Shown: piece by piece, positions 393 through 59,671 of the stretch
Position numbering within the stretch: the first letter of the stretch is position 1
Layout of the letters: each line of letters begins with the position of its first letter
Assembly: GCF_921293095.1 (NCBI RefSeq)
Contig: NW_025791658.1
Span: 9,610,001 to 9,674,000 of the forward strand
DNA length: 64,000 bases
Source of the DNA: Ischnura elegans
Taxonomy: Eukaryota > Arthropoda > Insecta > Odonata > Coenagrionidae
Reading direction: 5' to 3'
Translations under genes and position numbers: made by a program
Notes under the pieces: generated by a model
What the model was told of the DNA's origin: nothing
The model's database searches: none
What the model saw: the letters and a program-made list of their open reading frames with translations, nothing else

Positions 393-1380
393 TGAATTCA
401 AATTTTTCCTCACGCACGTTTCCCCCGAATTTTACTTTCTCATCGCATACAGACTTGTGTGTCACCCGAAAATGCTTCAGTATGGTGATGTGGATTTCGC
501 ACATCTTCGCGATAATTTACGCCACAGTGCACACACACGCTTCGGTTCGGAGTCAGATCTTGCTTCAGTGACGTCGTTGCCTTCAAAGCGAAGCCGGGCG
601 CACTACGTGATACATGTAGTTGGCGTTTCCAATCCGTCTCTAATTGTTTGAGGGGTTAATGTTGCGCATGTTTCTTTGAAAATTTGGCTGTTTGTACAAT
701 GTTGCATATCAGTAAAGTCTAATTGTAGATAGAAAACTGAGCGGCATTCAATTAGAGCTGAAAAATAAACAGAACTATCGTCAGGAATGCGTCTCGTTTG
801 GTCTAATTCTTTTTTAAATCTCGTGCATGTCATCTTATTGTCGAAGCTATCAAGATATCTTCGGGCCCAGAAGTCACACTCCTAGCATTTTTCGTCTAGA
901 AACGGAGAATTGAAGCAGGTAGGCCAAAAAAGGTCAGTTGGTGCGACGAGGTAGGGATGAAACACGCTTCAATTGTTTTCGTGTGATTTGATATTTTCCT
1001 TAGAAGACAATGATTTATGATCCGTTTGATTTCGGATACGAAAAAACAACAATAGAGGCACGGGCTGATGGACGGCCAAAGGTGGTTTTCTGAAATCCGC
1101 GACGTAGTTACTTTTGACGTGGTTATTACGTTATTATCCTACGGCGCTGAGATTCCCCCGATGATTGTTCAATCTCTTGGGAAGAGTCACACTATGTGCC
1201 AGTCGTATTGTGCCTTTTTTATTTTCTGGCTGAAAATCCTGGCCACGGCTGAAATTCTACTCGTAACCTCTGCGAGAGCTTTCAAACAAAACGGTTCATG
1301 AGTAGGACAAGAATCGCATGCGACGGCGCATTCGAAGAGGGAATCGGAACTCTATCCACCCTGATTGCATTCACTGAAGC
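393..1380. other. unassigned; isolated hAT-like end motif
   Basis: No gene is recognised. A lone TAGGGATG motif at 952-959 resembles a hAT terminus, but no matching 8-bp duplication joins it to the opposite-facing termini at 1499 or 2209. Short ORFs here show no recognisable domain. Confidence 0.3.
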
Positions 1381-1499
1381 TATTATTTAAAATTTCGGAT
1401 CCAGATCCGATGCCTTCCGCGACTTTGGATCCGATGTATCCGATGAAGGGCAATATCCGCAGATATTTGGGTCCGAGGTATCCGATCCGACCATCCCTA
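1381..1499 (-). mobile_element. hAT terminus with GGATCCGA subterminal repeats
   Basis: The segment ends in CCATCCCTA, the complement of the common hAT terminus TAGGGATGG. Just inside lie repeated GGATCCGA/ATCCGAT words, typical of subterminal transposase-binding repeats. No partner end with a matching 8-bp duplication was found, so this is a solo end. Confidence 0.5.
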
Positions 1500-2100
1500 A
1501 AAATAACAGTAGCCGCGGTGGCTAAACAATAATGTAGCGTTCATTGCGTCCATACATACCAGAGCAGCCTGGTGGGTGCGCGGTGGCGGCCGAACGCAAC
1601 CTGTCGAGTCCGCCCGGAGGCCGCGGCGGCTTATGCCAAGAAAGTATCAACTTTCTCAAGGGTTGCATTGATGAAACTGGGCTATACAAACGCGAATGTG
1701 TCTAAATTTTTTATTATTGACGCAGGCGCGTGTTAGTCTAAAAAAAGTTACATATATAAAAAACCCGCTCTCAGCGCGTATTTATAAGAAACTTTTTTCA
1801 CAGGAGAACTCGCTGTCTGCACGTTTTTATTTTCATCAGACTTCCAATACCATTAAAAAAAAAAAACATTTCGATCTATTATACTTTAAAATTGGTGGTC
1901 CAGATGAATTCTCCGAATGTGATTCATAATGCCACTCTTGCCGACATTTTCATGTTTCCGAGGCCTCTTAGGCATGTTCGTCGCAGCACCCGCGTGCCGG
2001 GCGTATCCTCCGCGCGGGAAGGCTGACACCGCGACCGCTTAGGTGTGTGGCAGCCTTTATGCCCCACACTTATAGTCTATGCTCAAAACATTTATCTTCC
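1500..2100. other. unassigned, GC-rich patches
   Basis: Contains GC-rich patches around 1560-1640 and 1970-2040 and an A-rich run near 1855-1867. I see no exon, RNA gene or repeat end that I can support. Confidence 0.25.
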
Positions 2101-2209
2101 TGGAATCGATGGAATCGGAATCGACTTTAGGCGATCGATTTTCGATTCCGATTCCGTTCTCGAGAATCGGTGGAATCGAGAATCGACATTTGGAATCGAC
2201 TCATCCCTA
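2101..2209 (-). mobile_element. hAT terminus with GGAATCGA subterminal repeats
   Basis: The words GGAATCGA and TCGATTCC recur many times in about 110 bases, and the segment closes with TCATCCCTA (a hAT-like end read on the minus strand). It is related in style to, but different in word from, the end at 1381-1499, suggesting two hAT families. No left partner is visible. Confidence 0.5.
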
Positions 2210-3604
2210 GTTAGGACCATTGAGGAGGAACCTCTATGGTTAGGACCCGCCCGCCATTGCGACGGTGGGGGATCCCATCTCTTCCTTCCCTATCCTTTCC
2301 CTGGAGGTGTCATCGGGTTCCTATCGCGGCGCCGCCTCCTTCCTTTCTCCTTCCTTGTCCTCCTCCCCCTTCTGCGGTGTAGAGGTGAAAAGCTAGTAGT
2401 GGCGCTTTTCTACTTCCTATGCCGATGATCAACTGTTCTGTTTTCCCGAATACGTGGTCAATTCTAGCAAAATGAATATCTGTATTCCCGAATGAGTGGT
2501 AGCCACCTATGGTAATTTGGTATATCAGTCGTGTATCTAGCTATATCAGGCAGTTCAAGTGCACTATGGCTTTCCGCAAGTGAGATGTAAAATTAAATTT
2601 GAGATGTGAAGAAAGTTTTTGACGATGCCAAAATAAAATATTTTGCTAACAACCAAATCGATCAGAGATTCCGTCATTAAGCAGTTGTGTACTGCCTGTA
2701 ATGTATGAAATATCATCAATTATTTGAATATCCTGCTTAAAAATCAGTGAGAGCCAGGGCAAGAAATCTTATGAATGGGCACATAACATTACGTGGCATA
2801 GCATAAATCTATCTTGAAAATTGAATTTAGGCGCGGTTTCAGACGAAAAATCAGTTATTTCAATTGAATTTTTGTGCATATCTGTGCAACATGCTCAAAA
2901 ATTCAAAAAGAGCAAAATTATTTAATATGCATGTTAATATGTAGCCCCCTATGACTTTGATGAAACCCTGAAGGATTATCAAAGAAAGTCAAATAAACAT
3001 TTAGCTATCTCCTTTTAAGTAATTGCAGGTATTCAAAATCGTCATCTATGTAATAATATAGCTGTAGCGGTCAATAACTTTCATCGGGGATGAATTTATT
3101 TTCACCGGCTAGCACTCCCAGCGTCTGCTAAGAGACTTGCAGTTTTTTTTATTTTTGAAGTTTTCATTATTTAAAAAAAATATTTTATACTAAGTCATAC
3201 TGAAAGCATATGTATCTTAAAAGTTCCAATTTATGCCCAGTTCAATACTAATAAATAGTAGATCTGTGGTACACCAATTTAGGCAGCGCTATGAGGGTAA
3301 AAGTAGTGATTCTCGTGAAAATTAGAAAATTGAAGAATTATTTCTTTGGTCCGATAGTTGCCGAAATTATTTATAACTTTCCATAAATTATGTATTTTTA
3401 ATAGCATATTGTCGTGTTCTCTCGTGGACGGCTCTACCAGGGGCGACTCAGACTCGGGATCTTGACTGACGCTGAGGGCTTCCGGACTGCGAAGGTAGTG
3501 GACCTCTCGGAGGGACAGTTAAAGGAGAGAAATGAAAGGTATGGAGTTTGCCGAACAAGAGTGATCTCCTGCCTCGAATACTCCCGGTCAATCGTAGAGC
3601 TTCA
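2210..3604. other. unassigned
   Basis: A pyrimidine-rich stretch (about 2270-2400) is followed by AT-rich DNA. Nothing recognisable as a gene or repeat end was found. Confidence 0.25.
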
Positions 3605-3661
3605 GGGAACCTCAAGAGGACCATAAAGAGCAATTCTTTGTGGTCCTCTTTTGAGGTTCCC
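3605..3661. repeat. short hairpin (about 25-bp stem)
   Basis: The arm GGGAACCTCAAGAGGACC (from 3605) is complementary to the right arm ending at 3661, with small differences and a loop of about five bases. It could be a decayed MITE or a small-RNA hairpin. The sequence alone cannot tell. Confidence 0.5.
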
Positions 3662-4249
3662 GTTGGTCCTTTTTACCACCATCTCCACTTTTCTCAACGA
3701 ATTAGGTCAGTTCAATTCTCTCATCAAAATATTTAGCTTAAATCACGGTATCACCATAAAAAGCATGCCTAAAAATCGATTTGTCTTTCTCACCTCACTT
3801 TATTTTTGCCAAAAATCGCAAAATGTGAAGTTTGTGTTCATATCCCTCGATAATGCTGAAGCCCCTAAATTGTAGACCCTTGAAGTGAATTGGAGACCCC
3901 TGCTCTGAACCATTCCTGAGAATATACTTGTTCGTTTTTCTTTATGTGAATAGCCGGGGGTTCCTTTTCACAACCACGGAAATTGCGTCAATGCGGGGAA
4001 CATTGCGGAGCAATGCTTTCCAATGTGATAATTGCTTGAAGTACTTCACCGGACCCTTAGCCGAATGGATTGTCAATAATATGTGTTGGCGGTCGCGATA
4101 AGAAATTTTCTACTAAAATTAAGGTATGAGGAGTCACGAGCAAGCCCCGAAGGCTTGAGAAGGCTGAAGGCAGGAGCTCCAAAGCGGCAGTAATAAGAGT
4201 GAGGGAAACTATAGGAAATCCGGAATGGGGTGGGGGAAAATATATTAAT
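3662..4249. other. unassigned
   Basis: AT-rich with no recognised feature. Confidence 0.25.
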
Positions 4250-12306: not shown

Positions 12307-13158
12307 GAATCCACACTAACTCTGTTTTTATGGATAATGAAATGGTCTTTATGACATCTTTAAAATTGCTTTTCCGTCTGACCTTTGCCTGTTGCCTTTT
12401 AAACGATGTTTGTGTCATCTGTAATTATATAACTGGGGTAGTTTGTGGGAGAGATTCAGGTTGATAGTCTGTCCTATTGGCACCAAAATTATTATGATTA
12501 TCTGGTTCATTTTCTGCTGGTTTGTGTCATCAACTCTTCATTTATTCATCTTTTTAGGCCGTCTGTGACAGTGAGGCTGTATTCACCCACTGTTATGCGG
12601 GCAATGTGGGCTCTGTCCATGATGCCAGAGTCTTTCGGCTTTCAGCCGTTCATAATTTCCTTAATGATGAAACGAAATTCCCCAATGACAGCCATATCAT
12701 TGGGGATGCTGCCTATGGGTTACATCCCCAGCTCCTGACCCCGTATGCTGACAATGGCCATCTGTCACAAAGGCAGAAGAATTTTAATTTCACTCATGCT
12801 TCAGCCAGAATGGCCATCGAGAGAGCCTTTGGCCTCCTGAAAGGCCGGTGGAGGTCATTACTCCACACCCTGGCTATGCAGGACTTATTGTTAGAGCAGG
12901 TGCCAATAGTAATTTTATCTTGCTGCGTGTTGCACAATATCTGTTCAATACGGAGAGATAGGCTGCTGGCCGGCCTGCACAACAATGTCAACCTGGGCAG
13001 GAAGAAAGAGGCCGAGATGCAGGGAGGTTGAAAAGGGACTTAATTTGTGCGCGTCTGGCTGTGAGGGACGTTTGATTAAGGTGTCTTTTGTAAGTGTATA
13101 TAATAATGTAAATGTCTCTGATGCTGATACTTCTATCTTGTGTTGTTTTTTGGTTTAA

Positions 13159-16945: not shown

Positions 16946-19620
16946 TCACTGCTTCTTCAGGCCAGACAGGAAATTAAACAGGCGGTCCTGTTTTGCCATG
17001 GCCTCGGCATGCATGGCCGCCCGCTGCTCCCTGCTGGCCTGCAAAGATTGCAGTACTGAATCCGCACTTGGTCTGCCTGAAAAGAGAGGAACAAAAATTG
17101 AAAAGAGCCGCTTTAAATTTTGCTACATTAGCTACAATTTTGATTGATGTAATACAATTACAAATAGAAAAAAGTGATCTAAATTCACAGCTCATAACAA
17201 TGCTGAATACATCTTGCTTGGTGAACTATACAAAAGCTTATAAGTTGATGTTCCAATGTGATTTGGAGAATTTTCTGAAGGACGAAGAAGCTTCAGCTCA
17301 AAAGTGATCATAAAAAAAGCACTGCGTAGACTGATTAAGTCATATTTGTAAAAACATCACAGATGTTGCAGTCAAAACCAATAGAACTCATTCGATCAGT
17401 TGGCAGAGACTTACGTCTTCTTCCACTGCTACTTCCACTTCCACTGCTACTTCCACTTCCACTGCTACTTCCACTGCTAGGTGATGATGAAAACTCTATG
17501 TGTGCGGTATCTACCGCTCGCACTGGAGCCATCCATGGCTCCTTCTCAAAGAAGGAGTCCATTAGCTGAAAGGATAAGTCACACTAATAAAAAAAAACTG
17601 GCAAAACTAAATAACATTTATCAGGGTGGCATGAAAAGTGTAATACCTCCAAATAAACCCAATTTCTTCTGGAGTTCCCACTCCTATTGTTGTGGTCCTT
17701 GATGGACCTGTAGGTCTTTTTCAGGCCATTTATTTTGCTTTTGCACTGAGGACCAGTGACAGCAACGCCATTGGCCCTCAGTGCATCAGCTAGTCTCTCC
17801 CACACCTTCTTCGCCGACGTCTTCCCAGAGCTCAACATTGGCTCCTCCTCCTTGAACGTCTGCACAAGGAGGAGGATAGCCTCATGGGTCCAACGAAAGG
17901 TATCTGCAAAACACATTCTACAATTAATGACCAGTCTTATTGTTAGAGGTTACACAGAACATTAACTTGCATACTTTAGTTTGTCCTTCTGAATTCACGA
18001 AGGGTTTTGCATGCATTGTAAGGTAAAATTGAGGATAATCACATAAGATCTTTGCTTAGGTCTGACCACACGAGGCAACTAAAATATATTCCACAGTGCG
18101 CAAGTAATGTGTTCCAAAATGGGTTTTTTATCCCTCTGCATGATATAAAAAGAGGAAAATGATGGAGCACATGATGAGGACCCCACACAAAAGTCTCCTT
18201 ACTTAACCAATATTGAATGCCCAGAACTTTAACAATGCGCTTAAGGTGTCTTAAGTAAAAAAATTTCTAGGATACACATGAAAATGTGAACGTGCAAAGG
18301 AGGCGAGAAATCAGTACCAGTATCTGAGCTATGAAAAAACACTTCATAGTTATTATAAGTTATAGTAATATAAATGTTATATAAGTTATAATAAATATAA
18401 ATGTAATATAATGAAATGCCATACCATCCCCAGCACTCCTGCTGCTCTCTCCAGCTGCGAATAACATAGCCGATATTAAATCCAAAAGCAATCAGAATCA
18501 TACTGAGGTTAAAATGAACTTACATCTACTAAGTATACCCAATGCAAGAAGAATACGTGATAGCCACTACACAAAACACCAACGGCATTTATGTATTCCC
18601 GGCATTTTAAGAAATTCATTATATTAAAACAGTACTGTCACAATATCAGAAAAATCACAGACGTAGTATTAAAAAAATACACAGCAACATACACTAACGT
18701 ATTTGTGGCCAAGTAATAACATCGTCAACTTAACAGCCTAAGCCTTACCGTCAAAGGAGATCTCCCCTCGTGCTTGGTTGGCCAAGGGAGGCTCATCGTC
18801 TAAGTCTTCTAGAACAAAATAGTAAAAAATGCTCATTAGCGCAACAGGATGATTTGCAAACAGGCTGTAATTGTGAAAAGCTTTGCGGGATATCTTAGCG
18901 TCAACGCCTGATACAACGCGTGCAGCCGGCTGTGTAGCGGTTGTGGCCATGCTGCCATCTCCACCTGTAAATATCAGAAATCAATATCTCAGAGTTGCAG
19001 CGAAACTGTAGTAGTATATAATAAATAAATAACTGTATTTAATGCACGGGAAAACGTAGCTAATTGATAGTAAAACAATGCAGTGATATCTACACGCACA
19101 TGTTCATAGCATAGAAGAGCGGCACGATACTTACGTCCCATTTTCGAGAAATATTCACAGAAAAATATATACGCAGTAACAAAGATAACATTGTAATACA
19201 CGAGTTTATAATAATGAAACGCGTAGGCATTGACTTACGCTCTAGCGGCGGCCGGTGGTCCGGGCCACGTTTTTCACAAACAGGATCTTCTAAAATGAAA
19301 AAAAATAACACGGAAATAAGAAATACATGCCCAAAGAGAGAAATAGTTTCATTAAAACATTTCATAAAGACGTAGTAACATACCTTGTGCCCTCACGGAC
19401 TTCATTAGGTTTGTGGCGAACACCATGTCTGAAAGAGGTAAAATTCGCATTTGTAATCGAGCTCTTCCACTATATATAATTTTTAAAACACAATTACAAT
19501 TATATAAATGTACGATATCTTACCCATGTGCGCCTTCTCCGCTACCGCTGGAGTGACTTTTAGCGAAAAGACGCGTCCTGACTCCGCGTCCAGCAGTTGC
19601 AGGGTTACCATGCCTTCCAT
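16946..19620 (-). CDS. Harbinger Myb/SANT-like DNA-binding protein
   Basis: A multi-exon minus-strand gene. Exons that join in phase are 19620-19524 (starting MEGMVTLQLLDAESGRVFSL), 19428-19384, 19289-19239, about 18966-18749, 18454-18425, 17903-17647, 17565-17415 and 17076-16946. The 17903-17647 exon encodes the trihelix/Myb-SANT-like domain with its aromatic core (FRWTHEAILLLV, KVWERLADAL, KKTYRSIKDHN). It is followed by a Ser/Gly repeat linker (17475-17415) and a helical tail ending in FNFLSGLKKQ and TGA. In known Harbinger systems this protein binds the element ends and helps bring in the nuclease. No disabling change was found in the exons read. The exact borders in 18966-18749 are uncertain: that stretch is open throughout, and a spliced-out middle is possible. 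It is convergent with the transposase gene. Confidence 0.8.
17415..17482 (-). repeat. Ser/Gly-coding minisatellite
   Basis: A tandem 12/18-base pattern (AGTAGCAGTGGAAGTGGA type on the minus strand) encodes the SSGSG linker of the Myb-like protein. Copy number may vary between element copies. Confidence 0.7.
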
Positions 19621-20164
19621 TACTTGTAATCTACTCCCTTCAAATTTCCGCCACAAAATGACTTGCTCCTCCTCGAACCCTAGTTTTCACAGAAGCGTCT
19701 GGAGCGAGGCGGGAAACGGGTGTGTGACGTTTTCCGTGACGTCACACCTTAACCTGTAGCGCTCCGTAGCGAATAACGGACCGCTTGGGAGCTCGTCGGT
19801 GGCGCTACGAAGCATTAGTAGCGTTCAACGGACCGCACCCCGAGTCTGCTCGCGCTCCCGGCAAGGAGGCACGCGGGCTGTTCAATTCATAGATCTTTCA
19901 TATAGGTAGATGGCGCATGACGTCACGCAAGCGTGGTCAACATAAGCGTGGTCGTGTATCACGTGACTCGGGTCAGCGTTATGGTGAATACGCGTAGTGC
20001 CTTCGGTTGCGATGAGAGATTCCTGAAAGGAATTTGTGTTTCTTTTCACTGCAAAGTTTGTCCCTGTTAAAATTAAAGCCGTGTTAGCCATGGATATATT
20101 TATTACTGAGTAAAGATACGTGTAATGCAATGCATGCGCTATTTAATAAGAAAATAAAAGCATT

Positions 20165-21271
20165 TACTGTCTATAAAAAAAGCAAGATACTCGAGTTTGA
20201 GGAGCTCTAGCGTCTAAACGAAGCAATCGATTTCAATGCAACAAAAAGCATACGAAAGAGAATTTAGTTCTACGTTATATCATGTACTTTAAAAATTCTT
20301 CGGCTAAGTAGTATTTCCTGTACTTAATTTTTTCTCAAAAAAGTACCCGTTTTTTGCGCGTAAAATCAAGTTGCCCAACTTTGAGCGCTTGGCATTCCCG
20401 TAGTTTTCGTTCCTATAACTTGCAATTTTGATATAAAGAAGCAACATCTATTACTAGCAGTTTGCCGAAAACAAATTGTTTATACCACAAAAATTAACGG
20501 AGTTGTTGTAAACAACGCAAACCTCTGCTAACTTCGAAACCAGTGAGTCAATTGAAAATTGATTGGTACTGTTGTCTTCCGTAGAATGTTAGTAATGTAT
20601 ATACGTAGATAATACACGTTAAATGTCAGCAGTATATTCAATATCTTTTTATATTTATTTTGGTTTTTAGCTCTTGTTGTCGTCTTCTCCCTGCCTGACG
20701 AGGATGCCCTAAACAAAGCACCAGAAAAGAGAAAGTCTATCGAAGTCATACGTGCGTACGCGCATAGAAACGTCTAGATAAATAATAAGTGATATCGACG
20801 TTATTATTGATATTTAATATACATTTCATATGTGCTTGCATTACTAACATTCTACGGAAGACAACAGTACCAATCAATTTTCAATTGACTCACTGATTTC
20901 GAAGTTAGCAGAGGTTTGCGTTGTTTACAACAACTCCGTTAATTTTTGTGGTATAAACAATTTGTTTTCGGCAAACTGCTAGTAATAGATGTGGCTTCTT
21001 TATATCAAAATTGCAAGTTATAGGAACAAAAACTACGGGAATGCCAAGCGCTCAAAGTTGGGCAACTTGATTTTACGCGCAAAAAACGGGTACTTTTTTG
21101 AGAAAAAATTAAGTACAGGAAATACTACTTAGCCGAAGAATTTTTAAAGTACATGATATAACGTAGAACTAAATTCTCTTTCGTATGCTTTTTGTTGCAT
21201 TGAAATCGATTGCTTCGTTTAGACGCTAGAGCTCTTCAAACTCGAGTATCTTGCTTTTTTTACAGACAGTA
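20165..21271. repeat. 433-bp near-perfect inverted repeat with 241-bp spacer
   Basis: The left arm 20165-20597 and right arm 20839-21271 have equal length and differ at only about five sites by eye. The spacer 20598-20838 contains a short open stretch following a TTTTTAG acceptor-like site on plus. A transcript across it would fold into a very long hairpin. It may be a foldback element or an inverted duplication inside the 3.2-kb element. Confidence 0.9.
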
Positions 21272-21321
21272 GGGTAGCTCAGGCATCCGGCAAGTTACGG
21301 AACAAGTATATTTTCCTTGTA

Positions 21322-21567
21322 TTGACGATGGAAGTATTCACAGCTATTACTTCCCTATTTCTACATTTAAGGGACCATATTCTGGAGCAAGATTTTGAAG
21401 AAAATCAGACAAATAACTTAGTTCGTGAAATAATATTCGAACACCTAATTAATCAATCAAGATTGAGAGCAAGTAAGATTTATTTTCAATGTATTTCCAA
21501 CTCACTCGGCTACCTGAACAAAATGTATTTTACGGAATCAGTATGGCTTCCAATTCCATGCATGTAA
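21322..21567 (+). CDS. unrecognised exon-like ORF inside the 3.2-kb element
   Basis: The ORF begins MTMEVFTAITSLFLHLRDHI and is rich in charged helix-forming residues up to about 21487, where CAA|GTAAGA forms a good splice donor. A pyrimidine-rich TTTTTTTACAG acceptor-like site lies upstream near 21254-21264. A second acceptor (TTTTCTTGTAG) lies at about 21727-21737, before the MITE at 21795. I recognise no domain. It could be a remnant of this element's transposase gene or a captured host exon. Confidence 0.3.
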   Translation: MTMEVFTAITSLFLHLRDHILEQDFEENQTNNLVREIIFEHLINQSRLRASKIYFQCISNSLGYLNKMYFTESVWLPIPCM

Positions 21568-21794
21568 CTGTAAAGACTATTTTTAGGCTACATTATTTGA
21601 GTGTGAGCTGAGGCTGGGCCCTCAATCATTTCTTCAGGTTCCTCTTTTTTCTATTGCCCTATGCTAACTGAATCTCGTTTAGACTGTATGGTTTCTAATT
21701 ACTATTATGTTATTTCTAAACCCTTTTTTTCTTGTAGATTCTGTTTGATGGATGCTCTCTATCCTCATTTTGGAATTCTATGAAATTGTTACAT

Positions 21795-22016
21795 GGGGGA
21801 ACACGGGGCGGAACGAGGTAAGCGGTTTTTTTTAACGCGAAAAAAGGTGCTGCGCAAGCGGGAATAACTATATCTAGCCCAGATTGGTGTTGCTTATATT
21901 TTAAAAACAACAATTTTGACTAGTTATATTTACTCCTGCTTTATTTCGCAATTAAAAATCGCTTACCCCGTTCCGCCCCGCCACCCTGTTGCGCACCGGG
22001 TTCCCCTATGTTCTAC
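21795..22016. mobile_element. MITE with GGGGGAAC / GTTCCCC ends
   Basis: About 220 bp with inverted ends (GGGGGAACACGGGG left; complement of CCGGGTTCCCC right) and inner inverted words GCGGAACG..GGTAAGCG. The right side has an extra stretch with no counterpart on the left. A target duplication is not clear. It interrupts the exon-like region of the 3.2-kb element. Confidence 0.6.
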
Positions 22017-22980
22017 CAAATATGTGGACATACACACTGTGGTCATTTAAAATGTAAAATTTATAGTCTTCTTTGATGGAGTGAAAATTGAGCTTCACTT
22101 TTGTATTCAAACCTTGTTTTCCATTGTCGGCAAAACATCTTTATTATCTGCGATGTTTTCATCACACCTCCAGCGGACGTATATTGCTAAAGGTTTCTTT
22201 AATAAACAAGGATTTATTACTAGCACATGTTGAAGGATATTTAATCATTTTATGCGAACTGAATTACGTACGAGAGATGTTCACGTATAAAATTTCTTAA
22301 AATCAATGCTGGCTGCAACACTGACTATTGTGGGTACTTTTGTTAATTAACATTCTGAGGAATCTTAAATTATATTTTCATCAATTTGCCCCGTGCAACG
22401 AGAGATAATTACCAGATAGAAGGAATAATCAGCTGGTTAAAGCTCCTAATGTTCTTCTCTGGCTTTGAAAGTCATGCAACATTGGAAGTGTCTTTCCTTT
22501 AACGATGACGTTCTATTAATGGCGTATTATTGAAAAAAAGATAGTACCTATCATTTGTGAAAGATTACTTATTAATGTACTGGATTGGTGGTTGAAATTC
22601 ATAGCCTATGGTTGTGTATACATTTTTCTCAAACCATGTAATCTACCTTTGTGTTATTGCTAACTTTATTTACGAAAAAAAACGGAGCCTTTGGATGCAG
22701 GTGTTCCTCTGTAAAGGACACAAACGAAACCAAACATGTGTTCCTGAAGGCTGCTTCAGTTGCGCATAATTGGGGAAACTATTTCAGTTTTACTATAGTT
22801 CTTCCTAAAACTGAATTAAAATGAACTCTATTTTGCTATAAGGTTCACATATAATACAGCAAAACGTAAATAAAAATAAATATCAAAATAGACACGTACT
22901 TCTTTAGCGCTGTAAGTAAAAGTAACATGTCTTTTACCCGAGCGGGAACGATATTCACAACAGAGAATTCAAACGCCGCC
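22017..22980. other. unassigned interior of the 3.2-kb element
   Basis: AT-rich. Contains no recognised coding domain. Confidence 0.3.
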
Positions 22981-23159
22981 ATTAATTTTGACCCGAACCA
23001 CGTGACTCCGAGAACGAAAGGGGGGGCGGTATGTTGGCTACGCGCTCCGGCCGTAAGGGGCTAGGGGAAAGCGCCATCTACTGTATAAAAGATCTATGGT
23101 TCAATTCGGTGGGTGAGGGGGGCGCGTTTCTTCCCGAGGCTTGAGTGCTCCACCTCTTG

Positions 23160-24136
23160 GGGTGCGGTCCGTTGAACGCTACCAATGCTTCGGAGCGCCA
23201 CCAAGTGGTACGTTATTCGCTACGGAGTGCTACAGGTTAGGCTGTGACGTCACGGCAAACGTCATACACCCGTTTCCCGCCTCGCTACAGACGCTCCCCT
23301 GAAAACTTGGCTCAGCGGAGGAGCGAGTCAATTTTTGGCGGAAATTCGAAGGGAATGCACTGAGACAATTGAGTTTACTCACGTTGCAGATGTTGGACGG
23401 CGAATGCGGACGCCTTTCTCCTATAAAAGTGACTACGATGTAACGGAGTAGACGCACTTAGTAAGTAGATGTAAATTTAATTGTGATTTAATTAAATATA
23501 CAGGAAGAACTAACTATCCGCAAACATTCTCGTATCTCCCCCAAAATGAACTCAAATGTATCTGGAAGCAGCCTTTACATCCAAAAGGCTACAAAAAATT
23601 ATTTAAAGGGGTATGTAATATAAAGAAAGGATTGTAAGAACATATATCGACAAATTAACTCATGCCATAAATTAAAATCTGAAGAAAAATAAGATATACA
23701 TGAAATGGATTAATGTTTTTTAATAGTCGTTATCCATTATAACTGGGCAAACGGTAGAGTACCTACTTTTTCCTTTACTAGGGTAATGAGTTTCATTGAG
23801 AAGGGTAGGCGAGGGTTGGTGTGAGAAATACGGTCCAAAGTTTCTTCCTTTACTTTGTGGAACCTCGATATTGAAAAATAAAATTCATTTTAATAATATT
23901 CAAACATATTTATTAATATTCAATGACCATAATCACCTCAACTCGCAATTAAAACCACATCTTCGATTCCATAATCCCAGTTTGCCCATCCTCGTTCATT
24001 TCCGCCATCTTGACTTCGCTCCTGACCGGTCCGAAAAGAAATTCTCGTAGCGAACGTAGGGACTATGGACCGGAGCTCCGGAGCACCTCCGTCGGTAGCG
24101 TCTGGTAGCGAAAGTAGCATTCATTGGACCGCACCC
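23160..24136 (-). mobile_element. internally deleted Harbinger copy, inverted
   Basis: The ends GGGTGCGGTCC are present. The left 300 bp match, in opposite orientation, the Myb-gene end of the 9281-19840 element, including a degenerate copy of Myb exon 1. The right part (about 23975-24136) matches the transposase end, including a recognisable exon-1 start (MAEMNEDGQ on the minus strand). Everything between has been lost. The flanks TTG and GGA do not match, so either the target duplication decayed or the copy rearranged. Confidence 0.8.
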
Positions 24137-27592: not shown

Positions 27593-30172
27593 AACGGAAA
27601 CCTGTCTTGTCCGGAAAATTTTGTTGGTCCTGGCGGTCACATTACGGTTTTACGTGCATTGGTGCCCTCTGTTAAACGGAAACTGTCAAACGCGGAAACG
27701 GAATCGATTCTCGGGCACGTGTTTCTTGGTTAAGCGGAATTTCAAAAAAAAATTCCATGGGCAATTTTTACCGTGAGGAAATAAAATCCTAAAATGTTTT
27801 GTAAAGCCCTCTCCATAGAAAATAATCCAACGGAACCAGCTAAATGTGTCGTACGTTCACTATGCTCTACGTCATTATTGACTGACATCAGGTCGCAGGA
27901 GGGACTCAGGACAATATTGCATCAACCTTGACCGAAACACTTTCTCGTCTCCCTAAATTTAGTGTTAATCCTCCTCCAGTGCCTCATGTCCATCGTCTCC
28001 CATCGCCATGTAAAGTGCAGTTTCGTTTCACGTACACTGTATCAAGTGCTCCACAAAAATCTCCACCCCTCTTCCCTCCCGCCCCCTCCTTTCTTAACCA
28101 CTCCGCCAACCCATGCTTGCAAACTTACCCCCTCCAACTCGTAGAACCCTCTCACTACATGCACAATCATTTTGTGAATCCTTACTATCCACCGAGTAAG
28201 AAGGAATCATTCTCCTACGTGCTGCCGACAGCGTAAGAATACAACGCAGAACGCTAAGAATAAAGGGAACTGCTGATTGATTTTCGCCATGCCACGAAAC
28301 GTATTAACGCTGAAAAATAAACTGGACTTGATTGAGTGCTTTGAACGAGAAAAGCTCTCAGTGAAGTAGATCCAAGAGAAGTTTAAGTGTGGAAAGACTC
28401 AAGTTTACGAAGCAATTAAGAAGAAGGACGAAATTAAGAAAGACTTTGAAAGAGGTAGGTTCTAAGAAACATATATCTTCTTTTCCCATGCCACAATAGT
28501 TTGCAAAACGACACACCATAAAATAATTGTAGTTTTCATCGATTATTTTAGGCCTTAGTTTACATTCAAAGAGGAAAACACCACTCTGCGAATATGAAGA
28601 AATAAACGAATTAGTTTGGGAATGGTTTGTGCGAGCAAGATCGAGGAATATTCCATTGTCAGGTCCAACAGTCCAAGAAAAGGCCAAGGAATTTGCAATT
28701 TCTTTGGGAAAATTGGATTTTAAGGCCTCCAATGGATGGCTAGACAGCTTCAGAGCAAGACGCAATGTTGTTTGGAGCAGTGTTGTTGGCGAGTCAAATG
28801 ACGTTGACATGGAAACCGTAGAGTGGAAATGTATGTTTCAAGTAAAAATTAAAGACTATCAACCATGTGATATCTACAACGGGGATGAAACCGGAATGTA
28901 TTTTAGGGCTCTGCTGTCTAAAACATTGTGCGTAAAAGGAGAAAACTACTAGGGTTTGTATGCATTTCCGGGTTCTACTTCTAGAAATTAGGGTAACAAT
29001 TCAAACAATGATGTCATATTTACACTTATTCTTTATTATGTAGGAGGGAAGCACTCAAAGGAGCGTTTGACCATTTTCATTTGTGGGAATATGGCAGTGG
29101 AGCTCCTAAAGCCTCTTGTCATCGGGAAATCAGCTCGACCACGATGCTTGAAAAACGTTGAAATTGAGAAGCTACCGGCCAAATGGAGGCATAATAAAAA
29201 ACATTGGACCCCGGTTTCAATCATGGAAGAGTGGCTTAAAAGTTACAATGCCGAAATGAAGAGGAAAAAATAGGAAAGTAATACTTTTCCTTGACAATGC
29301 AACCTGTCACCCTAAAATTCACCTTGCGAATGTAGAGCTAGCCTGGTTTCCGGTAAACACAACAAGCATCATTCAGCCAATGGATCAGGGAGTAATTAGA
29401 TCGCTGAAGGCACAATATAGGAAGTGCATGATGCGATCATTATTAGCTGCTGCAGATACTGCGAATTAAGTATCGGAGGTGTTAAAAACATATTAGAGCT
29501 GGATGCCATTAATTGGATTAACTTTTGCAATGAAAGATATTACACAATGTTTCGCCAAAGCTGGAATTCTGCCAGAACTGATCCCCGAGGAAGGTGAGGA
29601 AAATAATTTGAATGTTAATGTATCACCAATTTAAATGTATATTTACGCATTTACAGGATTATATATATTGCTATTTTAGAGCCAATGGTGGATCTCAGCG
29701 AATTGCAGCAAGTAAAAGGCATTGACATGAATGCTGAGAATTTGTGGATTTCGACAATGATCTTCTCACGAGCGATGAAGATGGTTCCTTAACAGCCAAT
29801 AATAAAGAAGACGAAAGCTGTGACACCGACGAAGAAGTGACCTTAATATGTGAAGAAAATAAAAAATCGTATAGAGAAATGTTGGTTTCATTAAAAAAAT
29901 TAGAAGAATGCAATCTCAACAATGGTAAAACTGATTTGTATTACATCTTACATGGGGCCATAGGCAACGTAGAAAATTGTATTCTACAGGAAAAAAGGAA
30001 AGACAGACAAAAATGACTGATTATTTCAAATAAACAATTTAAAAATAATGCGATGCTGTTCTGTTCTTTCGCGGTCATTTTTGAATTGTCAGACGCTGAG
30101 TTAAGCGGAATACTGTCTTATCCGGAAAAAAGTGAAGGGCCCAAGAGATTCCGCTTAAGACAGGTTTCACTG
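27593..30172 (+). mobile_element. pogo/Tigger DNA transposon
   Basis: The right end is the complement of CAGTGAAACCTGTCTTAAGC, the classical Tigger terminus. The left end is decayed (GGAAACCTGTCTTGTCC from about 27596). TA lies on both sides (27591-27592 and 30173-30174). Subterminal words TTAAACGGAAACTGTC repeat near both ends. It encodes one plus-strand transposase gene. Confidence 0.85.
28289..30016 (+). pseudogene. Tigger (pogo-type) transposase, damaged
   Basis: The gene starts MPRNVLTLKNKLDLIECFER, the amino-terminal CENP-B/pogo helix-turn-helix (28289-28454), with one in-frame TAG at 28366-28368. The second exon (from 28552) holds the CENP-B-type second DNA-binding domain and the first catalytic Asp in YNGDETGMYF. 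The third (from 29044, KHSKERLTIFICGN) leads to LFLDNATCHP (second Asp) and QPMDQGVIRSLK (third Asp), after a frame change near 29272. Further stops fall near 29467 and 29491. The final exon (about 29682-30016) encodes an acidic tail ending KDRQK, with a frame break near 29735. The DDD triad is visible but the gene is not open. It lies alone within its element. Confidence 0.85.
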
Positions 30173-40028: not shown

Positions 40029-40681
40029 GGGTGGTTTCCTATTATTTTTTTCTAGCCTAAATCGAAGGATCATCACTCGTGGAGTACGTATTTCACGCAC
40101 ATAGATTTTTAAATGACGATATCTATTTTTCGCGATGAAATGAAAAGTGAAAGTTTTCAAGCGCGCGAAAACGCGACGGCTAAGTATGAATGATGGGAAA
40201 ATTCCGTGTGACGTCGTTCTGGTTCCCGCTGCCGCAAGTGAGGTGACCTTGGGACGAGGCTTTGAGCGCTGTTACGACGCAGGCTGCTAGCAGGTAGCAG
40301 AGTACCCTGCTAGCTGGTAGCGCTTGGCTTAAATAAGGATTATTAATACCTTATCAAACGAAGGAAACTTTCCGGCCTTAAGCAGTTTTAATAGGTGATT
40401 ATTAAGACATGTTTCCCTGAGCTCTGTGCCGAATACATGCATTGGTAATCTCAGACCATGTAAAATTCCGATCTACTCGTATAGAAACTAGGTCCCTGTG
40501 ACTTCACGTGGAGTAGAATCGCATGGGTGCCAATCTGACCTTTTTCCAATGAGGATAAAAATTGCCATTCGTCTAAACCGGTATCTCTAAAACCGAATAA
40601 TTTGTATATTATGAATACACTAATGGTGGGTAAGGAATCGAAATCAATGTCTTTCATTGTCTTTGATGAAGGAAACTACCC
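40029..40681. mobile_element. TA-flanked MITE, copy 1
   Basis: The ends GGGTGGTTTCC and (complement) GGGTAGTTTCC bound a 653-bp non-coding unit. TA precedes the left end; the expected TA on the right reads AA. The interior includes GCGCGCGAAAACGCGACGG and a CRE-like GACGTC. It is the same family as 41650-42048 and 59040-59671. Tc1/mariner-type mobilisation is a guess from the TA target. Confidence 0.75.
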
Positions 40682-41649
40682 AATTATTCATATTGAATTG
40701 AATTTTTTCTAGTTGTGGTCACAAATTACCTCATAATTCTAGCCAAACATTCTATTCGAAGGGAGGGAAGGGTGGAATTTGAGCTTGAGCACTTAAGGGA
40801 GATCCACTAGATTCATGCATGGAAATTTTTGAGGGTAAGGCCAGGGGGCCAGGGTTGGAGTAAGTAAGGGTAGGCCGTGGCTAAGTGGCTTTATGGACTA
40901 AATTTGCGGAAGTAATTCGCAGTATTCGAAAAGAAGGTCGAAGAGTTCCAGCATTGAAAGTCTAAACAGATGGCATTGGACGAATTGTTGAAATAATAGT
41001 TATTCCTCATACAACCTATTGACTCAGGTAATAATAAATTTAATTTCGTGTTCTCACTGGATTGTGGTAGTCCTAAGGGTTTACTGAAAATCTCAGGTTT
41101 TTTTCAGAAAACTCCAGATATTGGCTAAACGTCTGTTCCAGAATTTTATATTCATATTCTATTTATTTTATCTCTAACGATTTATCAGAATAAATTCGTG
41201 GATTCAACATGGTGGCAACAGGTTTTTCGTTTAACATCGTAACGAAAATATGTTCGACGCGTGATGTTGTAAAAAAGTAAAAGGTGTGGCTTTTGTCGCA
41301 TGATTATATATTTGTCATGAAATATAGACAGGAAACAAATAACCCATAGCGGATTTACAAATTGGGATGGAATGGAAAATGGAATTACAGGTGGTTGAAA
41401 TTCAGACTATGGGCAGCAACATAATGACGTGAGATTGAGGGAAACAGCAGGAATTTCAGGGCATTTATAATATAGGCAACATAGACGAATGACGAAAGGT
41501 GCGAGTAGTTTTCTTGTGCTTTTATGAAGGTAGAACTAGCGCACAATTGGATGGTGGCATAGATACGTATCGCACTGGACCCGTAATTTGCTTATACGCT
41601 TCCCACCACCCTCATTTCCTGCATCCTCTCGCTATTTTCATCAAACTTT
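40682..41649. other. unassigned spacer between inverted MITE copies
   Basis: No recognised feature. Confidence 0.25.
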
Positions 41650-42048
41650 ACTCCACGTGACGTCACAGGGACCTAGTTTCTATACGAGTAGATCGGAATT
41701 TTACATGGTCTGAGATTACCAATGCATGTATTCGGCACAGAGCTCAGGGAAATATCTCTTAATAATCACCTATTAAAACTGCCTAAGGTAGGAAAGTTTC
41801 CTTCGGTTGATAAGGTATTAATAATCCTTATTTAAACCAAGCGCTACCAGCCAGCAGGGTACTCTGCTACCTGCAAGTATCCTGCATCGTATCAGCGCTC
41901 AAAGCCTCGCCCCAAGGTCACATCACACTCCGACAGCAGGAACCAGAATGACGTCACACGGAATTTACCCAGCATTCATACTTATCCGTCGCGTTTTCGC
42001 GCGCTTGAAAATTGTCACTTTTCATTTAATCGCAAAAAATTATTTCAG
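41650..42048. mobile_element. TA-flanked MITE, copy 2 (inverted, both ends lost)
   Basis: About 400 bp that match, in reverse orientation, positions 40120-40516 of copy 1, including the CACGTGACGTCACAGGGACC and CGTCGCGTTTTCGCGCGC words. The terminal GGGTAGTTTCC ends are missing. With copy 1 it forms a 400-bp inverted repeat spaced by about 1.1 kb. Confidence 0.75.
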
Positions 42049-46388: not shown

Positions 46389-46544
46389 CATACTCCAGTT
46401 GAAAAATTAGGTGAACGGGCAAGATTTGTCGTATTAAAATCAGAAAAAAAACCGTTGACTGTATTTAGGAGTACGTCAACGGTTTTTTTCTGGTTTTAAT
46501 ACCACAAATCCTGCCCGTCCACCTAATTTTTCAACTGGAGTATG
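46389..46544. mobile_element. palindromic hairpin MITE (70-bp arms)
   Basis: Arms 46389-46459 and 46475-46544 (outer word CATACTCCAGTTGAAAAATT) are nearly perfect complements around a 15-base loop. The whole 156-bp unit is a single hairpin. A TA lies just inside each CA..TG edge, so a Tc1/mariner-type TA insertion is possible. Confidence 0.75.
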
Positions 46545-58850: not shown

Positions 58851-59039
58851 GTGGCTCAAAATAGATTCTCTTGAAGTGCACGTGCAGTTCTTGGTACTGC
58901 GTGCCCTCAGGGGCGTTCTGCTAAATATATTGAAAACATTTCTTCCGTATCTTCCCCTCCGTCTAAGCGTGTTGTGTCTTCTGTCTAATACGCCTCGGAG
59001 GAGGAAGGCTTGCGACTGCAAGATGTAAAGTAAATAATA

Positions 59040-59671
59040 GGGTAGTTTCCTTCATCAAAGAAAACGAAAGGCATTGATTGCGATTAGTTACCCACCATTA
59101 GTGTATACACAATATACAAATTATTTGGTTTTAGAAATCCCAGGTTAGACGAATGGCAATGGTCAATTTTAACCGCATTTGAAAAATGCTAGATTGATGC
59201 CACTCCACGTTACGTCACAGGGACCTAGTTTCTATACGAGTGGATAGGAGTTTTAGATCGTTTGAGATTACCAATGTATGCATGAGGCACAGAGCTCAGG
59301 GATATATGTCTTAATAATCACCTTTAAAACTGCCTATGGTCGGAAAGTTTCCTTCTTTTGATAAGGTTTTTATAATCCTTATTGAAGCCATGGGCTACCC
59401 GCTACCTGCTAGCAGCCTCCATCGCAGCGAAGCACATACCCGCGCCCCAAGGTCACCTCACACGGCGACAGCGGGAATCAGAATGACGTTACGCGGGGTT
59501 TTCCCAGCATTCATACTTAACCGTCGCGTTTTCGCGCGCTTGAAGATTTTAACTTTTCAATTAATAGATTATTTTTTTAAATTAAATATCGTCATTTAAA
59601 AATCTAAGAGCGTGAAATGCGTACTCAAGAAGTCTTTCAATTTAGACAATAAAAATAATAGAAAACCACCC
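59040..59671. mobile_element. TA-flanked MITE, copy 3 (complete)
   Basis: The ends GGGTAGTTTCC and (complement) GGGTGGTTTTC are flanked by TA on both sides (59038-59039 and 59672-59673). 632 bp in the orientation opposite to copy 1 at 40029. Shares TCACAGGGACCTAGTTTCTA and CGTCGCGTTTTCGCGCGCTT with the other copies. No ORF. Confidence 0.85.

Follow-up and report, generated by a model that had tools for sequence, protein, structure and literature searches.

Sailor transposons (DD82E) have a spacing of 78-111 between the second D and the E of the catalytic triad and include many arthropod members, and their terminal inverted repeats (TIRs) vary widely in length, with one fungal Sailor possessing TIRs of 1362 bp (PMC8533490). 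The P elements and P-MITEs of Anopheles gambiae have TIRs of 27-31 bp and include internally deleted derivatives of 205-2450 bp (PMC1562414). Foldback elements are assigned mostly to the Mutator superfamily, with exceptions (PMC4079207). In Drosophila cells, two inverted-repeat loci are known to yield siRNA (PMC5392987). A description of a miniature-inverted or inverted-repeat transposon from Ischnura was not found in the open-access papers searched.

The window, i.e., the whole stretch of 64,000 nucleotides that was analysed (Ischnura elegans contig NW_025791658.1, positions 9,610,001 to 9,674,000), contains a pronounced hairpin. A sequence-only reading had announced a near-identical inverted repeat with arms of equal length and had mentioned arthropods. 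Its coordinates proved exact, and the arthropod setting was right, the source being a damselfly. The left arm (20165..20597, plus strand, starting TA-CTGTCTATAAAAAAAGC) represents the long TIR of a TA-flanked non-autonomous transposon and pairs with the right arm (20839..21271, minus strand, ending ...ACAGACAG-TA), which is its reverse complement; of the 433 nt of each arm, only positions 9, 37, 244, 279 and 376 are mismatched. The loop region (20598..20838) pairs weakly in its outer 61 nt on each side, and ungapped extension of the arms led to 494 nt with 29 mismatches and a spacer of 119 nt. Together, arms and loop form a unit of 1107 bp, and 20165-21271 are the exact ends of the mobile unit, from TA to TA; the two target duplications at 20165..20166 and 21270..21271 were identified from a table of ends and from sites without the hairpin. 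Very probably, this structure is a non-autonomous long-TIR (foldback-like) transposon of the IS630-Tc1-mariner (ITm) group nested in an internally deleted P transposon, which itself resides in a third palindromic repeat. Like foldback elements such as Tetris of Drosophila virilis, the hairpin element consists mostly of long inverted arms, is non-autonomous and can fold back (PMC4079207). It differs in having TA duplications and an ITm-type relative, and its arms proved free of tandem repeats.

To determine the distribution of the hairpin, the genome assembly ioIscEleg1.1 of I. elegans (1,722,721,009 bases in 110 contigs) was searched. The left arm yielded at least 43 matches on 14 contigs, including the window's own two, among the best 40 of 2201 candidates scored. 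The terminal 31-nt pattern of the arm occurred at 203 places with at most 3 mismatches, and the reversed control at 0. Single-arm copies, for which the earlier reading had recommended a search, do occur. The ends were tabulated for 31 places, the window and 30 others, chosen by similarity to the window copy; this set is not representative of the whole hairpin family, and the similarity ranking overstates the share of nested copies in it. Apart from the eroded ends given below, the arm ends that could be listed read TACTGTC...GACAGTA. The hairpin was situated in the same P context at 23 of the 31 places, with the common flank on one or both sides, strongly indicating that it has multiplied as cargo of a P element, and had unrelated flanks at the remaining eight (L030 and L032-L038). 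Four of these free copies were readable at both ends (L032, L034, L035 and L037), and all four displayed TA on both sides and nothing longer. TA on both sides was also present at L079, again between unrelated flanks. One eroded end each was observed at four of the 31 places (L018, L022, L024 and L027), and ten places offered a single listable end (L010, L024, L027, L028, L030, L031, L033, L036 and L038, together with L018, where the TA is eroded on one side).

Sixteen relatives of the P derivative lack the hairpin at the corresponding site, which in all 16 cases lies 240-258 bp from the left end of the P carrier. Eleven of them possess a single TA at this position and five a CA, demonstrating that the hairpin is an insertion at a TA that was duplicated. 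Judged from its sequence, the unit is thus a non-autonomous long-TIR DNA transposon of the IS630-Tc1-mariner group, dispersed in many copies. An assembly artefact in which one arm had been falsely duplicated is hardly conceivable: no point in its support was found, many loci share this structure down to its ends, copies of the P element with the hairpin stand beside copies that lack it, and the assembly was built from PacBio, 10X and Hi-C data (PMC9975421).

Free longer relatives of 1643-1894 bp retain the arms and contain more internal DNA, and at the loop position of such longer hairpin relatives about 0.5-0.8 kb of extra DNA was found that is partly transposase-derived. The internal open reading frame (ORF) of one free copy, L032, produced nothing above the cut-off against Pfam, nor did the partial ORF of L080 give a Pfam match; the family was settled by a longer copy, L079 (contig C19, 3072 bp, positions 937-4008 of its stretch), whose arms are the same and 95.4% alike. 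Its ORF of 381 aa matched DDE_3 at a modest 30.1 bits, just over the cut-off of 28.6, and displays a triad of D115, D224 and E316 with a D-108-D-91-E spacing. A comparison of this ORF with PDB sequences returned only two meaningless matches (E 0.46 and 0.85). L079 is regarded as a coding relative of the hairpin element, perhaps incomplete or inactive, that resembles the Sailor branch of IS630-Tc1-mariner. Its second-D-to-E spacer of 91 is within the Sailor range, and the motif around the E, HCELNAIEL, is close to the HCELNPIEL of Sailor; in contrast, the second-D motif reads IVIDQAP and not VIIMDNA, the hairpin family starts with CT where Sailor usually starts with GT or CC, and its target duplication is TA where most Sailor elements have TATA (PMC8533490). 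This comparison covers spacing, motifs, element starts and target duplication. On account of its target duplication and its first bases, the parent element was not assigned to Sailor despite the spacing and the HCELNAIEL motif.

The carrier of the hairpin is an internally deleted transposon of the P superfamily (19888..23098, plus strand), delimited by its ends, its target duplications and a transposase remnant, and comprises 3211 bp including the hairpin and about 2.1 kb without this cargo. The left TIR (CATAGATCTTTCATATAGGTAGATGGCGC, 19888..19916, plus strand) was recognised from the inverted ends and pairs with the right TIR (23071..23098, minus strand) with one gap and few mismatches, so that the inverted ends measure about 28 bp. 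A comparison of both ends of the carriers identified an 8-bp target duplication, GTTCAATT, at 19880..19887 on the left and at 23099..23106 on the right. Among eight carriers checked at both ends, six had perfect 8-bp duplications, each of a different target; L005/L077 matched in 7 of 8 positions, and L027 had none. Next to the hairpin, at 21271..21447 on the plus strand, lies a remnant coding for the C-terminus of a P transposase, in which 39 of 59 residues (66%) are identical to the P element at L083.

The left-end pattern of the P carrier was found at 65 places with at most 2 mismatches and at none with the control pattern. In a comparison by eye with 128 P-transposase matches, three of these 65 left ends proved to lie 2.7-3.1 kb upstream of such a match and on its strand. 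Two of the three, L083 and L084, match the carrier in the left 261 bp at 87% and 86%, respectively, and in a stretch near the transposase C-terminus at 75% and 74%. L083 encodes the domains PF12017, PF21787, PF21788, PF21789 and THAP9_C (P-element HTH, RNase H, GTP-binding insertion and THAP9 C-terminal). The match of this transposase relative to the carrier ends holds for the left end only, as no right P end was seen in L083 or L084 within the stretches read. The left-end match together with the C-terminal piece of the transposase indicates that the carrier is an internally deleted P element. A hAT element, which had been considered as the carrier on the basis of the 8-bp duplication, was dropped once this left end had been seen at three places to be followed, 2.7-3.1 kb further downstream, by P transposase. 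The carrier agrees with the A. gambiae P elements and P-MITEs in its 8-bp duplication, its inverted ends of about 28 bp, the presence of a P transposase remnant, its internal deletion and its size range; in contrast to these, the Ischnura P derivative carries the long-TIR derivative of another transposon as cargo (PMC1562414).

Several minor observations were made on the carriers. The places L012 and L014 (= L005 and L007) have different outer flanks and the same truncated hairpin, with a right arm of only 174 nt, which indicates that the truncation was copied as well. The carrier at L018/L088 (contig C3, 1.885 Mb) has a perfect 8-bp duplication, and L027, 1.1 Mb away (C3, 3.01 Mb), has none; their right flanks are identical in 65 of 65 bases and their left flanks differ. 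With its missing duplication and the right flank of L018, L027 looks like the product of ectopic exchange or duplication between two carriers, through the nested element. In the P elements L083 106 and L084 155 (contigs C14 and C17) the left flank is identical in 12-15 nt, and both may be situated in a larger common repeat or duplication. Within the P carrier of the window, a small imperfect palindrome at 21804-21980, with 27-nt ends at 93%, is found in many carrier copies and is possibly a fourth nested insertion.

The palindrome search of the window also identified the outer repeat into which the P carrier inserted; its left arm extends over 19635..19844 and its right arm over 23156..23354. 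The left arm with its flank had at least 40 matches, itself counted, among the best 40 of 310 candidates scored. The nested arrangement very probably arose in three steps. An element with a DDE_3 transposase and TIRs of about 433 bp would have lost its coding middle, resulting in a derivative of 1107 bp that consists mostly of arms; relatives of 1643-1894 bp and a coding relative of 3072 bp were observed. One such derivative then entered a TA inside a P derivative, as shown by the hairpin-free sites with a single TA. Subsequently, P transposase acting on the P ends would have multiplied the composite to many sites, a step based on the 8-bp duplications and the common inner flanks that were found. 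The likeness of the arms probably goes back to a long-TIR parent in which they already matched, and to the young age of the carrier copies.

The sequence-only reading had proposed that decay has affected the arms far less than the elements around them and that the repeat is either recent or kept alike by gene conversion. The first proposal stands with regard to the other palindromes of the window (19635-23354, 40125-42040 and 46389-46544), the arms of which are 87-94% alike. It does not hold with regard to the sister copies of the hairpin, in which 4-14 mismatches per 433 nt were counted, the window copy with its five being the second lowest of 15. The second proposal turned out to be half right. 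A tree was built from 41 loci with 68 arms; its bootstrap did not fully converge (correlation 0.977). The 39 nested arms of both sides fell into one clade (97/92), indicating that the ancestral nested copy already had like arms. Fifteen of 18 nested right-labelled arms formed a clade (98/87) without any left arm, with the right arm of the window in basal position. Three right-labelled arms were placed outside this clade, namely those of L017 and L022, which formed their own pair, and that of L027; the latter is identical to the left arm of L022, and its label is doubtful, as most of the L027 loop is lost. The nested left arms did not form one clade but occurred in small groups around the right-arm clade. 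Among two-armed free copies, a copy's own arms were paired at a bootstrap of at least 95 in five of 11 (L032 at 95/78, L034, L035, L049 and L079) and not in the other six.

In a second set of loci, the two arms of a copy were each other's closest match in none of 15 nested copies and in 4 of 13 free copies. For these counts eight near-duplicate loci had been dropped (one nested and seven free, four of the seven being places fetched twice); with the dropped distinct places added as non-sister, the numbers are 0 of 16 and 4 of 16. The contrast between nested and free copies is suggestive only, because the nested copies are close relatives in which sister arms are harder to see. The right-arm clade without left arms argues that gene conversion has not generally equalised the nested arms since nesting. 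Arm homogenisation thus appears to occur in the hairpin family, but not generally in the nested group since its spread began. It is very improbable that the window copy is a segmental or local inverted duplication in which gene conversion between the arms continues to hold them alike at this locus. This explanation could draw on the mere five mismatches of this copy, on the sister arms of the four free copies, and on three positions (252, 259 and 266) at which the right arm has the left-type base in L017, in L022 and in the window copy; the basal position of the window right arm, however, implies that this left-like patch may be ancestral, and neither the exact TA ends and the sites without insertion nor the right-arm clade and the lack of sister arms in nested copies agree with conversion at the locus.

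Divergence was also determined for the individual segments of the nested copies. Among 13 copies with all segments, the mean pairwise value was lowest for the 277-bp P left end (0.17%), followed by the loop (0.96%), the left arm (1.39%), the 500 bp that open the P right part (1.89%) and the right arm (2.11%). When every copy having the respective segment was included, the values were 0.64% for the P left end (21 copies), 1.45% for the left arm (22), 0.88% for the loop (20), 2.01% for the right arm (17) and 1.72% for the P right part (16). The left 277 bp of the P carrier (19888-20164) therefore are its least divergent part, the remainder differing by about 1-2%. The end of a P element is expected to be needed for transposition. 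As the arm divergence is about that of the P interior, this comparison between copies reveals no conservation of the arms in excess of neutral cargo; the nested arms seem to drift at about the P-interior rate, with no sign of selection on them.

These values also bear on the idea that the hairpin is a transcribed hpRNA locus, the dsRNA of which is diced to endo-siRNAs that silence the long-TIR family, and that it has been retained for this reason. A single RNA strand of 20165-21271 is predicted to fold into one long hairpin at -798 kcal/mol (a raw value with no shuffled comparison), and this near-perfect 433-bp stem, along with the siRNA-yielding inverted-repeat loci of Drosophila cells mentioned above, is in line with such a locus. 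Nevertheless, we consider it improbable, as the nested arms diverge as much as the P interior, no Rfam family reached the gathering score in the window, and many dispersed copies exist in place of one conserved locus. A single-locus hpRNA gene as the main reading was consequently rejected, the unit being a dispersed mobile element. Any long inverted repeat that is transcribed might act as an endo-siRNA source, but such a role is unsupported here, and an RNA function is not needed to explain the hairpin. Somewhat less improbable, but still unlikely, is a combined scenario in which the arms would be equalised when the element moves by its own transposase, by hairpin-templated repair, and not when it travels as P cargo, and in which P copies in transcribed DNA may additionally turn the cargo into a dsRNA source silencing the parent family. 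If true, a single genome would provide a natural experiment on what preserves the similarity between the arms of long inverted repeats. On the nested-transposon reading, the hairpin element is tidy but ordinary mobile DNA. The case demonstrates, by sites with and without the insertion, that nested transposition can account even for an inverted repeat as conspicuous and nearly perfect as this one, and a long-TIR ITm family and its P-element carrier would be added in a damselfly.

Some other identities were considered for the sequence and discarded. A known RNA family did not emerge at the gathering score in the window, and a tRNA-derived repeat was rejected, as no tRNA was found. The female colour-morph locus of I. 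elegans was also considered; it has been placed on chromosome 13, within ~1.5 Mb of the start of unlocalized scaffold 2 (PMC10781644), and the window is located at 9.6 Mb on its contig.

The window harbors further mobile elements. Another element with long inverted arms (278 nt, 94% alike, and 110 nt, 91% alike), together with a related partial copy 17-19 kb away that is 80-89% alike, was found at 40125-42040 and 59033-59565. The compact palindrome at 46389-46544, with 62-nt arms that are 94% complementary and a 32-nt spacer, looks like a short MITE. At 12558-13031 and 17584-17949, a Harbinger-type DDE_Tnp_4 fragment and a Myb/SANT-like ORF on the opposite strand were identified, which are perhaps, as a guess, the two genes of one PIF/Harbinger element. 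Finally, a Tc5-type HTH transposase fragment (HTH_Tnp_Tc5) was present at 28533-28952.
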